Below, piece by piece: positions 50,410-57,178 of a DNA stretch of 64,000 bases (its first letter is position 1; each line of letters begins with the position of its first letter). The stretch spans positions 1,815,150 to 1,879,149 of the forward strand of contig NZ_DF967965.1 of the NCBI RefSeq assembly GCF_001050195.2. Direction: 5' to 3'. The translations under genes and the position numbers were made by a program. The notes beneath the pieces are model-generated. The model was not told the origin of the DNA, ran no database searches, and saw nothing but the letters and a program-made list of their open reading frames with translations. The stretch is from Anaerolinea thermolimosa. GTDB taxonomy: Bacteria > Chloroflexota > Anaerolineae > Anaerolineales > Anaerolineaceae.

Positions 50410-50427
50410 TGATACAAATATCACCCT

Positions 50428-50505
50428 GGCGATGAAGCTCGCCATAATTGTCCTCTGACTGATAGCTTCTACTTTATGACTCGAAAAAGTAGAGGCACAT
50501 TTTTT
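50428..50505 (+). promoter_or_regulatory. Fluoride riboswitch 1 (crcB motif) with terminator
   Basis: Closing stem GGCG (50428-50431) / CGCC (50440-50443) around ATGAAGCT; P3 GTC-CTCT-GAC; the conserved CTGAT; and a pseudoknot GAAGCT (50434-50439) with AGCTTC (50464-50469). The same AGCTTC strand also forms the base of an 11-bp terminator stem (50465-50475 / 50486-50496) followed by ACATTTTTT. Fluoride binding should hold the pseudoknot and prevent the terminator, an ON switch. It lies directly before the DUF6062 gene. Confidence 0.93.
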
Positions 50506-50520
50506 ATTCAGGATAAAGAA

Positions 50521-51285
50521 ATGGCATTTGCCCTCTCCATCGTCACCCTTGAAGAAGCCCTGGAAAAACCCGGTTGCGCCATTTGCCGACTGGAGCATGA
50601 AGCCGCCATTCGATGGATCGACACCCTTCTTTGGGAAAATACCAACGACCCGGCAACCCGAAAACCAATCAATAATGCGTACGGCTTCTGCCCGGAACAC
50701 ACCCGAATGCTTGTTGCCATCGAAATATCCAATAGCGGTCCAGTTTTGGGCGTGAACATTATATATTCCCTCCTGGCAAAAATCGTCAGCCAGGACTTAA
50801 AGAAAGTCAGGAGCCAACCCCAAGCCCAAACACGGTTTTCTAAAGTCCTGCGAAAATGGGGAGAAAAATTTTTTCAGCGAAAAATCTCCATCATCCTTCA
50901 GCCCCAACAACGATGCCCCGTATGCGAAATGGTAGAACAATCCGGGAGAAATATCCTTTCCATTTTGTTTGAGGTCATTGAAGCTAAAGATCAAAAGTTA
51001 ATCGAGGCTTATCAGCGTTCGAATGGCATCTGCCTCCAGCATTTACGCATCGGGCTGGAAAATTACATGGTTCGATATCCAAAATCAGCAGATTTCTTGA
51101 TCCAGGACACGATTAACCGCCTTGACACCCAACAGCGCCAGATGTTGGAGTACATTCGAAAACATAACTGGGCTTATCGGGACGAGAAGCTAACTCCTCA
51201 AGAGCGTATAGCATGGCTCCGCACGCTCACTTTTTTTACAGGTTATCCGGCAGAAAAGTTTAATCACCGGATAGATGAGTTTTAA
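50521..51285 (+). CDS. DUF6062-type protein under fluoride riboswitch control
   Basis: A 254-aa cytoplasmic protein. It carries four Cys/His groups: CAIC with a following His (Cys19, Cys22), a GFCPEH pair near 57-60, CPVC near 133-136, and GICLQH near 170-175. This looks like two repeats of a CxxC...CxxH metal site, as in DUF6062. No enzyme motif is visible. ATG 50521 has AGGA eight to ten bases upstream; an earlier ATG at 50476 lies inside the riboswitch terminator and is excluded. Its control by a fluoride sensor is the best clue to function. Confidence 0.75.
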   Translation: MAFALSIVTLEEALEKPGCAICRLEHEAAIRWIDTLLWENTNDPATRKPINNAYGFCPEHTRMLVAIEISNSGPVLGVNIIYSLLAKIVSQDLKKVRSQPQAQTRFSKVLRKWGEKFFQRKISIILQPQQRCPVCEMVEQSGRNILSILFEVIEAKDQKLIEAYQRSNGICLQHLRIGLENYMVRYPKSADFLIQDTINRLDTQQRQMLEYIRKHNWAYRDEKLTPQERIAWLRTLTFFTGYPAEKFNHRIDEF

Positions 51286-51331: not shown

Positions 51332-51754
51332 CTATCCGGTATGGCGATCCCATCGCTGTACATTAACGTGCCCTTCATTCAGGTCAACCAGCAACTCTTT
51401 TGCCAGATCAGAAACCAGTCGAGAAGGATGCTGGCTGGCCCGTTGCAAGATCTTGATCCGATCAGGATGAGGTATTTTTACCACCGCCAGTAAAACTGCA
51501 CGAAGGAAAAAATAATCCTCCTCATTTCCCTCAATAATCTTTATAAATTCCGGTAAAGCGCGTTCGCTCTTTAAATTTCCGAGAATTTGGGCAGCCATGA
51601 TCCTTCTCTCAGGCAATGTGTGATGCAATGCAGCCAACAGCTTATCCTCAAAAGCCTGCTGTCGAAATTCGTCAAGAGGGTATCCACAATGAGGGCAGAC
51701 GCGTTCATTCGCGGCAACCTCCGACCAGCATTGAGGGCAGTAATAAGTCAACAT
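51332..51754 (-). CDS. Zinc-ribbon plus HEAT-repeat-like protein
   Basis: A 140-aa protein. The N terminus is a zinc ribbon (Cys6, Cys9, Cys20, Cys23). Residues 35-125 are helical with HEAT-like pairs (RRIMAAQILGNLKSERALPEF, ending in SDLAKELLVDL). Probably a small adaptor or regulator; no further function can be assigned. It is convergent with the DUF6062 gene and diverges from the enolase unit. Confidence 0.65.
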   Translation of the reverse strand: MLTYYCPQCWSEVAANERVCPHCGYPLDEFRQQAFEDKLLAALHHTLPERRIMAAQILGNLKSERALPEFIKIIEGNEEDYFFLRAVLLAVVKIPHPDRIKILQRASQHPSRLVSDLAKELLVDLNEGHVNVQRWDRHTG

Positions 51755-51934: not shown

Positions 51935-51940
51935 CAACAT

Positions 51941-53351
<1,411 letters not shown>

Positions 53352-53433: not shown

Positions 53434-54966
53434 TCAGGTAGCAATTTCCTGAGTAGCTGACTCGGGTACCGGTGAAGTGTTTCCAAAGACGGAAGAATAG
53501 ATATCCTCCCCAAAACTTGTTGGAAGCGGCTCTCCCTCGATCAGCTTAAATGTGCGCTTTCCACCCGACTTCCTTTCAGCTCGCAAAAACAAAAAGCGCT
53601 TATCTCGCTGAGTGTAGAAATTATGGGCAAACTCGTAGAAATGCGTCACAAAAAATACCTTGATCTGCCTCTCCAGAAACGCAGTAGTGATCTGCCTCCC
53701 AATTTCTGATCCTTCACGCTCATTGGTGGACGCAAAGGATTCATTGAATAACACGACGCTATGTGGAATGAGATGATCCACAATGTCACTCATTCTACTC
53801 AGCTCTTCATCCAGCTTTCCACTTTTCATCGAGGCATCTTCTTTACGCTTATAGTGTGTAAAAAGATGAGCGCATACATTCGCAGAAAATTCATCAGCCG
53901 GGACAAACATACCGCATTCCATCATCAGTTGAGCCAGACCAATGCTCCGTAAAAAAGTAGATTTTCCCCCCTGGTTGGCCCCCGTGATGATGAAAAGCTC
54001 CTTACCATCTCCCTTTCCATCATTTCCCACCACTTTCTGCTTCATAGTCAGGGCCAGACAAACATCATATAAGCCACGAAAGGAATGCTTCCGTTCGGTC
54101 ATTGGCGCAGGAGAAGGGAATGTAACCGGGCATCCCATCTCATTTAGTTTTTCATATAAATTTAAGCACCCGATGTAGAAAGCCAGTTCGGTTTGCAGCA
54201 TACGAAAGAAACTATCTACATGGTCAGCAGATTGAGCAAGGGCATTAGCCACCAGGTTAATCCCTCTGTCTTTTAATTCAGACAGGGCCCTGTTTCCTGC
54301 ATCATCCCGTTCACTGATATAAAAACTGTAAACTGGCTTTCTCCGAAGAAGAATATCACTCACACTCCGCCTTTTCACAGGCATTTTCAACAAAACATAA
54401 TCCATTCCCTCGTTACCCATTCCCAGTCTGGCACCCAGCAAAACACCTTGCCGAAACCTCAAAGCCTTTAGATGCTGAACAGCCTCCATGAAAAAACTAT
54501 CGTCAAGCTCTTTTTGAATCATCTCAAAAAAGGCCTTAAAGCCTCTGGAAGCAAATACCGCCCCATGTTCTTCGGCGATATGACGTAATTTTCTTAACTC
54601 ATCTAAAAACATCTCCATCATTTCAATAGAGCTACTCAAAATACCACTTGGGTAATAGGTAAATATACCCATCCAGTTCTTCCTTTTGTTTTCCATCGCC
54701 TCAATGGGAATTTGATATATTTCTCTGATCACCTCGGGATGGTTCAAACAATCTTGCAAAATTTCCTGGCGGTAACGAATTTCTTCTGGATCTTTTAAAC
54801 CCGTCAGAACCACTTGCCTGGCTACTTTGTACAGAAATTTATCCCCTCTAGCCATAGCATTCCATAAAGTGTTCAATTCCAAATCCTGAACCAGGTCCTC
54901 CTCATTAAAAGGAAGAGGTTGTTCAAGGTCTAGATCTCTATCTGGGTACATTAAGTAAGCTTTCAT
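53434..54966 (-). CDS. MutS-like ATPase B, second gene of the pair
   Basis: A 510-aa protein with a helical MutS core-like half (about 50-290) and a MutS domain V ATPase: Walker A GANQGGKST (329-337), Walker B VVLFNES with Asn408-Glu409 in place of the usual Asp-Glu, and a switch His442 in VTHFYEF. There is no mismatch-recognition domain, so it should not be called MutS or MutS2. The tail after 490 is low complexity. Its ATG overlaps the stop of the first gene (ATGA). Likely a heterodimer partner of that protein. Confidence 0.85.
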   Translation of the reverse strand: MKAYLMYPDRDLDLEQPLPFNEEDLVQDLELNTLWNAMARGDKFLYKVARQVVLTGLKDPEEIRYRQEILQDCLNHPEVIREIYQIPIEAMENKRKNWMGIFTYYPSGILSSSIEMMEMFLDELRKLRHIAEEHGAVFASRGFKAFFEMIQKELDDSFFMEAVQHLKALRFRQGVLLGARLGMGNEGMDYVLLKMPVKRRSVSDILLRRKPVYSFYISERDDAGNRALSELKDRGINLVANALAQSADHVDSFFRMLQTELAFYIGCLNLYEKLNEMGCPVTFPSPAPMTERKHSFRGLYDVCLALTMKQKVVGNDGKGDGKELFIITGANQGGKSTFLRSIGLAQLMMECGMFVPADEFSANVCAHLFTHYKRKEDASMKSGKLDEELSRMSDIVDHLIPHSVVLFNESFASTNEREGSEIGRQITTAFLERQIKVFFVTHFYEFAHNFYTQRDKRFLFLRAERKSGGKRTFKLIEGEPLPTSFGEDIYSSVFGNTSPVPESATQEIAT

Positions 54967-56498
54967 CCTGGAATCCGCTCCTTAATCTGTTCATAGGTCA
55001 ACCGATATTTCTTTGCAATATGAATGGCGAACGAAAGGCCATCGGCCGGTTTTCTTATCACCTTAAAGGTCCGAATCATAGGGTTATCTGGTAATACAGT
55101 GCTGACCATACTGACGGTTTTCTTGTGATAAGAAGTCAGTTCATCGATAAACGTTACCCAGACGCAAAATGCATCCAGCTGTACAATGGCCTCCATCACT
55201 CGCTTGCTTAAAAAGGTGGCATCCTTCAAGGAAGTCGAAGTAAAAATCTCGTTCATAATCAGGATGCTATCTGAGGTAGCATGTTTCAGGATTTCGTGAA
55301 TCCTGACCAGGTCATCCTGCAACTTACCCCGAAGGTTGCGGATATCTTCCTCTTTTTCGAAATGGGTATAAATCTGGTCCCACAGGAATACATGGGCTTC
55401 CTCCCCGGGGACGGGAAGACCCAGGCTGGCCATATAGTGGATTTGCCCAAACATACGCGCAAAGGTGGTCTTTCCACCCTGGTTGGGCCCAGTGACCACA
55501 ATGATCCTTTCATTTTCTCGGAGCTCAAAATCATTGGTGACAACGGGCAGTGCCCCGGTCACACATTGATTGGCCAGTGCAATATCGAAAGCTTCGTAAG
55601 CCCAAACCGTTTTCTCCGTGTTTGAAACCTGCGGGTAACAGAATTTCAGGCCAGCCTGTTTCAGCCTGGAAATGAATTCAAAATAAGCCAGATAAAACTG
55701 AACTTCACGGTCGAACACCCGAATCGTCTCATCCATAAAATCGAGATGATCCTGGCAAAACCGGTCTAAGGCACCAAAAATCTCCGGGTAGAGTTTCGCC
55801 ACACAATCTAAAATCTGGGCCTCAACATAACTCATGCCAGCTCCACCGAGCTTAAGACGATAATCCTTCACCGCTCCTTGTTTAAATTTCAAGAAGGTCT
55901 GTTCTACCTCCTGACTGTAATCAGGTTCCGACTCATAAGCCCGAACTTGCACCCAATTCCCTTTGATGTGAACGCAATATTGAATAGTGGCCAGTTCATC
56001 TTTTATTTTTCTTGCTTCCGCCATCATGGCGGTGAACCGTTCCGATTCCACATAATGATGCAGATAATCACGCAGGGCCTTTAGTCCTCGTGATTGGAGA
56101 TCTACCGATGAAATACCTGCAGCAAGTCCTTCCACAGCCTTACCATAGGCTAAAATCGACTCCAGGAACCACCCCTCTTTATGATTTTTGAAATAAAGCT
56201 GATCAATCAAACCCAGATATCGGCGTGCCAAAACCATTTGTTCAGCAAACGCCTGAACCTCTTTTATCAAGAGCGGGTTTTCCAGGTCTTTTCCCACCTC
56301 TTGTCGATAGAGAATCTGATCGATATCATGGAGAGGGGTATAGAAAAAAGGCTTAAGCCTGTAATCCTGCCGCCCAGATACAATTTCTTTAACTGCCTGA
56401 TCCAGGTTTAAGTCCGGAAAGTAAACGGGTTGTCCAGCAGATTCTGCCTGTTCGGCAATTCCCCTGTCTAGAAAAAGAACACTTAGAAAAACTGTCAT
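54963..56498 (-). CDS. MutS-like ATPase A, first gene of the pair
   Basis: A 511-aa paralogue with the same plan: helical core 50-300 and ATPase with Walker A GPNQGGKTT (337-345) and Walker B ILIMNEIFTST (Asn416-Glu417). The switch region reads VTFIDEL, so the usual His is absent. Together with the next gene it probably forms an asymmetric ATPase dimer acting on nucleic acid or ribosomes; the substrate is unknown. GAGGTGA before the ATG. Directly downstream of fluoride riboswitch 3 on the same strand. Confidence 0.85.
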   Translation of the reverse strand: MTVFLSVLFLDRGIAEQAESAGQPVYFPDLNLDQAVKEIVSGRQDYRLKPFFYTPLHDIDQILYRQEVGKDLENPLLIKEVQAFAEQMVLARRYLGLIDQLYFKNHKEGWFLESILAYGKAVEGLAAGISSVDLQSRGLKALRDYLHHYVESERFTAMMAEARKIKDELATIQYCVHIKGNWVQVRAYESEPDYSQEVEQTFLKFKQGAVKDYRLKLGGAGMSYVEAQILDCVAKLYPEIFGALDRFCQDHLDFMDETIRVFDREVQFYLAYFEFISRLKQAGLKFCYPQVSNTEKTVWAYEAFDIALANQCVTGALPVVTNDFELRENERIIVVTGPNQGGKTTFARMFGQIHYMASLGLPVPGEEAHVFLWDQIYTHFEKEEDIRNLRGKLQDDLVRIHEILKHATSDSILIMNEIFTSTSLKDATFLSKRVMEAIVQLDAFCVWVTFIDELTSYHKKTVSMVSTVLPDNPMIRTFKVIRKPADGLSFAIHIAKKYRLTYEQIKERIPG

Positions 56499-56514
56499 TT
56501 ACTCTCACCTCAAT

Positions 56515-56590
56515 AAAAAAGCCTCTACCGGCGTAAGCTCCAGTAGAGGCTATCAGTCTGCCACAGACATTGATCGCGAGCCTCATCGCT
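56515..56590 (-). promoter_or_regulatory. Fluoride riboswitch 3 (crcB motif) controlling the MutS-like pair
   Basis: On the minus strand: closing stem GCG/CGC around ATGAGGCT; pseudoknot GAGGCT (56584-56579) with AGCCTC (56551-56546); P3 GTCT-GTGGC-AGAC; and the conserved CTGATAGCCTCTACT. The terminator is GCCTCTAC (56550-56543) against GTAGAGGC (56528-56521), with extra G-C and G-T pairs inside, followed by TTTTTT. The sequence is close to the T. petrophila aptamer as I remember it. The MutS-like ATG follows 16 bases after the T run. Confidence 0.95.
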
Positions 56591-56613
56591 CTATTGGACT
56601 TCTTTCAAAAAAA

Positions 56614-56751: not shown

Positions 56752-56906
56752 TTGACAGTCCCTTTTTTAAGTGATAACCTTGCGGACGTGTAAGACGCTT
56801 GGAATTCGCCTCAAAATCGCTACAGCCTTGCCCGGGTGGGCATCTGCAAGAGGGTTTGTTGGCGGGACTGCGTCGCCGAATTCATTTCTAGATGGAGTGT
56901 GTAAGA
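56752..56906 (+). promoter_or_regulatory. Cold-shock gene promoter and long 5' leader
   Basis: TTGACA (56752-56757), a 17-base spacer and a weak -10 TAACCT (56775-56780). The leader of about 120 bases can fold: GAATTCG (56802-56808) with CGAATTC (56877-56883), and an inner GCCC-GGGT-GGGC hairpin (56830-56841). Long folded leaders are common on cold-shock genes, where they act as temperature sensors; that role here is inferred. Confidence 0.55.
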
Positions 56907-57125
56907 ATGTCTGATCGTTATGTTGGCACCGTCAAATGGTTCAATGCCACCAAAGGTTATGGCTTCATCGGCCGTGACGACAACAATGGAGATGACGTTT
57001 TCGTGCATTTCTCAGCCATTGAGATGGAAGGTTACCGTTCCCTCAAGCAGGGCCAGAAGGTAGAATTTGAGATCGAACAAGGTCCTAAAGGACTCCAGGC
57101 GGCTCACGTTACCCCCATCAGCTAA
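56907..57125 (+). CDS. Cold-shock domain protein
   Basis: A 72-aa OB-fold RNA chaperone. RNP1 is KGYGFIGRD and RNP2 DVFVHFSAI, with VKWFNATKG at the start. Binds single-stranded RNA and DNA and melts structures. ATG 56907 with GGAG nine bases upstream. Monocistronic, with a terminator at 57145. Confidence 0.95.
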
Positions 57126-57144
57126 TTCACAGCATTAACCACGT

Positions 57145-57178
57145 TCAGGGGCGTCTAAAAACGCCCCTGATTTATTTT
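57145..57178 (+). terminator. Terminator after the cold-shock gene
   Basis: A 10-bp stem (TCAGGGGCGT / ACGCCCCTGA), loop CTAAAA, tail TTTATTTT. Confidence 0.88.

Follow-up and report, generated by a model that had tools for sequence, protein, structure and literature searches.

Why two MutS-like ATPase genes should stand behind a fluoride riboswitch is the question raised by a locus of Anaerolinea thermolimosa (Chloroflexota), located in a 64,000-nucleotide stretch of contig NZ_DF967965.1 (assembly GCF_001050195.2, positions 1,815,150 to 1,879,149), hereafter the window. Comparison with other genomes makes it almost certain that these genes encode a distinct MutS-type ATPase pair, with overlapping reading frames behind the riboswitch, which recurs in the fluoride-resistance islands of many bacteria and plasmids. 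Fluoride resistance is usually ascribed to export and to overproduction of the poisoned enzymes. An earlier note on this DNA named MutS-like genes among fluoride riboswitch targets, and correctly so: Weinberg et al. 2010 (PMC2864571) place the crcB motif in front of “DNA repair (mutS)” genes. A term search of a 2024 review of fluoride resistance (PMC11139923) for DNA repair, mismatch or ATPase gives no match. No description of the paired family or of its altered ATP site was found in literature searched on the themes of fluoride, riboswitches and MutS, a scope that leaves aside the gene lists of Baker et al. 2012. The association of mutS with the riboswitch has itself been in print since 2010.

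The first gene, B (positions 54963–56498 of the window, minus strand), encodes a protein of 511 residues, and the second, A (53434–54966, minus strand), one of 510. As the earlier note had described them, they are paralogous MutS domain V genes that overlap by ATGA, the start of A and the stop of B sharing positions 54966–54963 of the minus strand according to the open reading frame (ORF) coordinates, and mismatch-recognition domains are absent from both products. PF00488 (MutS_V) is the sole Pfam family matching A or B at E ≤ 0.001, with 74.7 and 80.2 bits, respectively, against a gathering score of 30.2 bits; the recognisable parts are the MutS core and the ATPase. The reading of the ATP site given in the same note was borne out by alignment. 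Walker B reads Asn–Glu in both proteins (N408–E409 in A, N416–E417 in B), and the switch His is confined to the second gene, A reading VTH (T441–H442) and B reading VTF (T449–F450). The Gly–Lys that takes the place of the trans Ser–Thr of MutS is G383–K384 in A and G391–K392 in B. Walker A and the catalytic Glu are retained by both proteins, which makes the single active site suggested in the earlier note no more than one possibility; the two differ most plainly in the switch His.

Upstream of B lies a fluoride aptamer, the third in the window (56543–56592, minus strand), with a GAGGC/GCCTC pseudoknot. It scores 42.8 bits (E 2.6e-11) with R2, a covariance model of 38 aligned aptamers, none of them from the A. 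thermolimosa genome. The Rfam model RF01734 does not list this aptamer (56592–56543) at E ≤ 1, nor at E ≤ 10 genome-wide, and its gathering score is not reached; the same model does match copies at the same position elsewhere, in the genomes G055, G072, G118 and G206 and on a B. multivorans plasmid, where an aptamer of 49.8 bits lies immediately before B. A further model, R1, aligns 40 of the 61 aptamers that also supplied the 38 of R2, and includes sequences from the loci on which it was searched; its score of 50.6 bits for the pair's aptamer arises by construction, the sequence having been in the R1 alignment. The 61 aptamers were picked by pattern and by a four-pair pseudoknot filter, so that their 100% pseudoknot pairing is partly by construction. 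In an alignment of sequences pre-filtered in this manner, P1, P3 and the pseudoknot as well as the conserved GATG and CTGAT are present in the pair's aptamer, and pair counts reveal base changes on both sides in 7 of the 12 aptamer base pairs. An intrinsic terminator lies upstream of B (56520–56551, minus strand; a 12-pair stem, then a T run), and the 51-nt stretch around it folds with −22.3 kcal/mol and a z score of −4.9. Because the 5′ strand of the terminator contains the pseudoknot strand, the aptamer fold and termination would be mutually exclusive. By way of this predicted aptamer–terminator switch, fluoride should turn the pair genes on.

How far the pair is conserved was followed in 251 genomes of Chloroflexota, with A and B called at E ≤ 1e-40, and in a wider collection of genome contigs, from which the best 80 of at least 584 confirmed relatives were kept and whose percentages are not valid for all bacteria. 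A occurs in 28 of the 251 phylum genomes and never without B; in two of these 28 genomes, A and B form a single-gene hybrid. At the same threshold B also occurs in G119, as a fragment near a contig end. The hybrids (G104, locus L075, and G062, locus L078) have a B-like start and an A-like end, each with an aptamer upstream. They are joined at different places (L075, 7229–8752; L078, 6588–8153; both minus strand) and are either natural hybrids or assembly artefacts. In the wider collection, 78 of the best 80 relatives have a B homologue upstream in the same orientation, some copies being cut or broken; the two exceptions are L164, truncated by a contig edge, and L163, from a genome (G271) with further MutS_V matches, two neighbouring ones of which resemble a full pair. 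The ATGA overlap is found in 21 of the 26 two-gene phylum loci, window included (the exceptions are L059, L061, L066, L067 and L068), and in 53 of the 62 loci of the wider collection with both genes readable. At L192 (6255–7890), in Rubrobacter radiotolerans, the first gene is apparently split into two annotated ORFs, the second of 384 aa, and the second gene is complete. Judged by record title, the hosts of the pair are Chloroflexi, Bacillota, Spirochaetes, Desulfobacterales, Proteobacteria, Caldatribacterium and others. Many of these records are metagenome bins with possibly wrong labels, and the isolates include Pelotomaculum, Moorella, Thermoanaerobacterium and Caballeronia.

Association with the aptamer was counted over 107 pair loci, 27 from the phylum and 80 from the wider collection, with the window, L079 (a fragment) and L080–L086 (not pairs) excluded. 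Fifteen were dropped with B cut, absent or too close to an edge, which leaves 92 testable loci on 91 distinct contigs (L058 and L166 being one contig that enters twice into the sets of 92, 105, 107 and 108 loci and of 105 A and 88 B proteins). An aptamer lies at most 700 bp upstream of the pair, on the same strand and at E ≤ 1e-3, in 55 of the 92 testable loci (55 of the 91 distinct contigs); where the locus aptamer was outside the training set, the count is 28 of 65. In a further 16 of the 92 loci, L058 and L166 among them, the fetched DNA contains an aptamer at this E value in some other place. These counts rest on covariance-model matches, not on simple pattern scans, in which chance matches and missed aptamers occur. 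At the same threshold, no aptamer was found in 22 control loci (MutS1, MutS2 and KamC-like) or in the seven loci L080–L086, and the only control matches listed had E ≥ 0.5. At the level of whole genomes, an RF01734 aptamer is present in 24 of the 28 phylum genomes with the pair versus 57 of the 223 without it (Fisher p 7.7e-10, a value that overstates independence owing to kinship among genomes), and the R1 figures, biased towards pair loci, are 26 of 28 versus 54 of 223.

The altered ATP site recurs with the pair. With hybrids kept apart, Walker B reads Asn–Glu in 103 of 104 readable A proteins (one of 105 was unread, and the exception, L117, has Asp–Glu) and in all 85 readable B proteins (three of 88 unread). 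His442 is invariant in the 73 aligned A proteins, as is Thr449–Phe450 in the 58 aligned B proteins. In the ungapped stretch before Walker B, the position of MutS Ser668 is occupied by Gly in 102 of 104 A proteins, in 76 of 85 B proteins (Ser in nine) and in five of five single-gene relatives from the same phylum (L080–L084); the residue that follows is Lys or Arg in 103/104, 84/85 and 5/5, respectively. Asn–Glu is likewise present in all five of these relatives. The 22 MutS1, MutS2 and KamC-like controls have Asp–Glu in 22 cases, Ser in 21 and Thr in 21. Here Ser668 is numbered after a review, and the remaining correspondence to E. coli numbering at the trans site, including the Thr that follows, is presumed. 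The Asp-to-Asn change would remove an acid in cis, and the gained base would face the partner's nucleotide if the dimer is MutS-like. According to the passages of PMC3848065 on this motif, the Walker B residues of MutS stabilise Mg-bound waters. The laboratory-made E. coli MutS D693N (PDB 3K0S) carries the same Asp-to-Asn change as the pair, whereas its trans Ser668 is intact.

A tree of 52 ATPase domains sets off A (18 rows and the ATPase part of two hybrids) and B (17 rows), each by a branch with 100/100 support. Another 100/100 branch splits A, B and the five single-gene relatives from MutS1, MutS2 and the KamC-like protein, while the branch between the pair and the single-gene relatives has a support of just 88/26. 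Host phyla are mixed in each clade, which fits transfer between lineages. The obligate heterodimer suggested in the earlier note is indirectly supported by the strict co-occurrence, the translational coupling and the split into two conserved clades, all of them features of the sequences. The structures predicted for A and B (pLDDT 85.3 and 88.7) resemble MSH2 (8rz9; Z 30.4/31.6, rmsd 4.2/4.4 over 377/399 residues) and MutS2 (9a5o; Z 29.9/30.8, rmsd 4.5/3.7 over 383/395 residues), with MutS close behind and ribosome-bound MutS2 (7qv3) at Z 27.2/28.3. Where the clamp of MutS sits, the models have two short low-confidence strands; the MutS clamp has four strands, as described in the pertinent passage of PMC3848065.

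Membership of established families was considered and rejected. The models share with MutS1 the MutS_V ATPase domain and the MutS core/lever fold, whereas the pair differs in having no detected mismatch domain, Asn–Glu for Asp–Glu, Gly–Lys/Arg for the trans Ser–Thr, two co-occurring paralogues and a fluoride aptamer; the NCBIfam scores are 61–85 bits against cut-offs of 480 and 641.7, and MutS_V alone was matched. MutS2 has a similar core, its residue 1 aligning to residues 19–24 of the A and B models, but the pair has no SMR or KOW match, scores 68.0 and 76.1 bits where 400 are required and forms a separate clade on the opposite side of the 100/100 branch. KamC, named lysine 5,6-aminomutase reactivase ATPase by NCBIfam, is also a MutS-like ATPase with a profile of 508 positions; the equivalog scores are 69.9 and 52.3 bits against 300, and the tree also speaks against membership. 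A defence system was rejected too, PADLOC giving at most 18 bits for the pair and PHROGs matches falling in two families of unknown function. The single-gene relatives L080–L084 lie on the pair's side of the 100/100 branch and have the Asn–Glu and Gly–Arg site, but they consist of one gene that retains the switch His, with no aptamer found nearby in the fetched loci at E ≤ 1e-3. Inspection of their neighbours by eye gave no functional clue.

Plasmids carry the pair as well. Among 72,556 plasmid records, A has matches in 48 at E ≤ 1e-20, and in 47 the match spans 80% of A or more. Their hosts include Klebsiella (18), Citrobacter (6), Rhodococcus (6) and Enterobacter (5), and 21 of the 48 are predicted to be conjugative. 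The plasmid copies are annotated “DNA mismatch repair protein MutS”, a label that conceals a widespread, partly plasmid-borne ATPase pair linked to the fluoride riboswitch. The E. coli plasmid p027_SK3a has an Rfam-grade aptamer of 59.4 bits ahead of an antiporter, a universal stress protein, B and A, with facing genes for a P-type ATPase, CrcB, gpmA, eno, a universal stress protein and a DHHA2 protein. This pair, too, falls below the NCBIfam cut-offs for MutS, MutS2 and KamC, and of 5,426 complete E. coli genomes a single one has it by megablast. The E. cloacae FRM operon (PMC5533749) includes a P-type ATPase piece, crcB, gpmA, eno, uspA and ppaC in the order seen on p027_SK3a; unlike the plasmid, it has no MutS gene in the passage with the operon table. 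The sole Rfam-grade aptamer of a Rhodococcus plasmid lies before crcB rather than before the pair. On a Rubrobacter plasmid, the Rfam aptamer points away from the pair, before which R1 gives a weaker one (24.9 bits). A distant relative, 26% identical over 93% of A, is found in a gut “Bacteriophage sp.” record (MT837116.1, 2137–3555).

The pair is one part of a larger fluoride regulon. The 4.17-Mb genome holds eight aptamers at E ≤ 1e-4, the same eight being recovered by R2, and by position and Pfam match one precedes crcB followed by DUF190-CBS, two precede DUF6062 coding sequence (one as part of a dynamin-like protein, one as a gene of its own), and the other five stand before a P-type ATPase, an MFS transporter, a pyrophosphatase-like protein, enolase and the pair. 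Around the pair elsewhere, the co-directional neighbours in 105 loci, taken by a crude chain rule, include DUF190-CBS (16), dynamin-like proteins (14), MFS transporters (14), CrcB (8) and enolase (7), the clusters being named from one representative, partly by eye. Genes for enolase, CrcB, pyrophosphatase or antiporters are frequent near the pair across phyla. Enolase above 120 bits occurs on either strand in 22 of the 108 pair loci, window included (two run off the end of the fetched stretch), and it is co-directional within 300 bp in six (L065, L100, L106, L127, L132 and L144). We estimate the chance of finding a random gene in a 14-kb stretch of a 4-Mb genome at about 0.4%. The order is aptamer–enolase–B–A in L106 and L132, and aptamer–pyrophosphatase–B–A in L054.

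What could such a pair do for a cell exposed to fluoride? Taken whole, the best explanation, which joins the riboswitch-linked pair to fluoride induction, dimerisation and a reactivase-like remodeller, is a tentative one with a real but limited chance of being right. Fluoride would release the terminator, and A and B would be made together. They would dimerise via their ATPase domains to give two unlike sites, one with and one without the switch His, each reshaped by Asp to Asn in cis and by Ser–Thr to Gly–Lys/Arg in trans. It is possible, if doubtful, that this dimer remodels proteins, not DNA, slowly and under the gating of ATP and, in the manner of a reactivase, opens Mg enzymes held by Mg-fluoride-phosphate, enolase and pyrophosphatase first. 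Rather unlikely is the further claim that it represents a new class of ATP-driven reactivator, a heterodimer of MutS fold whose rewired two-site ATPase frees Mg-fluoride-phosphate from these two enzymes. A protein remodeller is favoured because enolase or pyrophosphatase is sometimes on the pair's transcript, because nucleic-acid parts are missing or reduced and because one MutS-like protein is named an enzyme reactivase by NCBIfam, the last by analogy only. Enolase and pyrophosphatase appear as standard fluoride targets in the corresponding passage of PMC11139923. If the pair does act on proteins, MutS-fold ATPases would work beyond nucleic acids in stress biology, and a reactivator would add a repair route for fluoride poisoning to export and overproduction. 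The copy on p027_SK3a puts the question within experimental reach in E. coli.

Several points weigh against the protein remodeller. In 21 of the 92 pair loci, no aptamer was found in the fetched DNA, be it at E ≤ 1e-3 or by the Rfam gathering score. DUF190-CBS, dynamin-like and MFS genes are commoner than enolase as co-directional neighbours, so that the enzymes and the pair maybe just share a fluoride island, an arrangement that may require no physical link between them. The namesake reactivase is not close to the pair: a KamC-like protein (283 bits, below the cut-off) has Asp–Glu and groups with MutS2. Since substitutions in the Walker B DEXX of E. coli MutS abolish ATPase activity (PMC3848065, passage on the motif), ATP turnover by the pair may be low. 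With its eno/ppaC/crcB operon, E. cloacae FRM resists fluoride strongly, and the terms “DNA repair” and “mismatch” give no match in the paper on it (PMC5533749). The target of the remodeller, its ATPase activity and the dimer are proposals drawn from sequence.

The strongest rival, itself unlikely, is a ribosome or RNA quality-control factor like MutS2: fluoride complexes would stall translational GTPases, and the heterodimer would split or mark the stalled ribosomes. Such a role agrees with the close structural match to MutS2, ribosome-bound 7qv3 included, and with the mismatch-recognition domain undetected by Pfam, but the SMR and KOW domains are likewise undetected, the tree sets the pair apart from MutS2, and no translation gene is prominent among the 14 neighbour clusters listed. 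Another candidate role is that of an assembly or regulatory ATPase for membrane or ion-homeostasis partners (CrcB, antiporter, dynamin-like) in place of metabolic enzymes. DUF190-CBS, dynamin-like and MFS genes being the commonest on the pair's strand speaks for this role, which we nevertheless hold to be improbable, as the neighbour set differs between loci.

The two remaining alternatives start from the ATP site and from the annotation. The earlier note had offered a fluoride-tolerant ATPase. In a fuller form of this idea, Asn–Glu and Gly–Lys/Arg would make the site immune to Mg-, Al- or Be-fluoride and the pair would replace a fluoride-sensitive ATPase. An altered second shell could indeed change metal-fluoride binding, Walker B holding a Mg-bound water (PMC3848065, same passage), but the same residues in all five single-gene relatives, near which no aptamer was found at E ≤ 1e-3, leave the suggestion without specific support, and we judge it distinctly improbable. 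Least probable of all is the role implied by the label “DNA mismatch repair protein MutS”, namely the repair or protection of DNA under fluoride. The MutS fold of the models, the plasmid annotation and the DNA-damaging stress proposed in the passage of Weinberg et al. 2010 (PMC2864571) favour it; set against these are MutS_V as the only domain detected, the replacement of the Asp–Glu and Ser–Thr hallmarks and the presence in the same genome of two longer proteins with MutS_V (881 and 806 aa, the second with a MutS2-type Walker A), which are taken as MutS1 and MutS2.

The rest of the window adds further members of the regulon. An enolase gene convergent with the pair (52068–53351, plus strand; TIGR01060 662 bits) has an aptamer before it (51939–51996, plus strand) that scores 33.4 bits with RF01734 (gathering score 34) and 48.3 bits with R2; the other of the two enolase copies in the genome, at C1:377301, is 65% identical to it. 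A DUF6062 gene (50476–51285, plus strand; PF19538 72.2 bits) is preceded by an aptamer at 50426–50472 (plus strand; RF01734 39.1 bits, R2 56.4 bits), and its predicted start codon overlaps the aptamer match, so that the true start may lie further inside. DUF6062, an uncharacterised, Cys-containing, fluoride-linked domain, is found both in this solo gene and in the C-terminal part of the dynamin-like protein (G000:C1:923419–925227), each behind a fluoride aptamer. Also behind an aptamer, at G000:C1:960332–961783, is a protein of 483 aa that has a pyrophosphatase domain at its N terminus and matches bacterial PH weakly; it is a homologue of this protein that directly precedes the pair at L054. 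A cspA-type thermoregulator match at 56799–57173 of the window reaches 66.2 bits, under its gathering score of 78. At 51332–51754, the window encodes a zinc-ribbon and HEAT-repeat protein that recurs beside the pair at a few loci.

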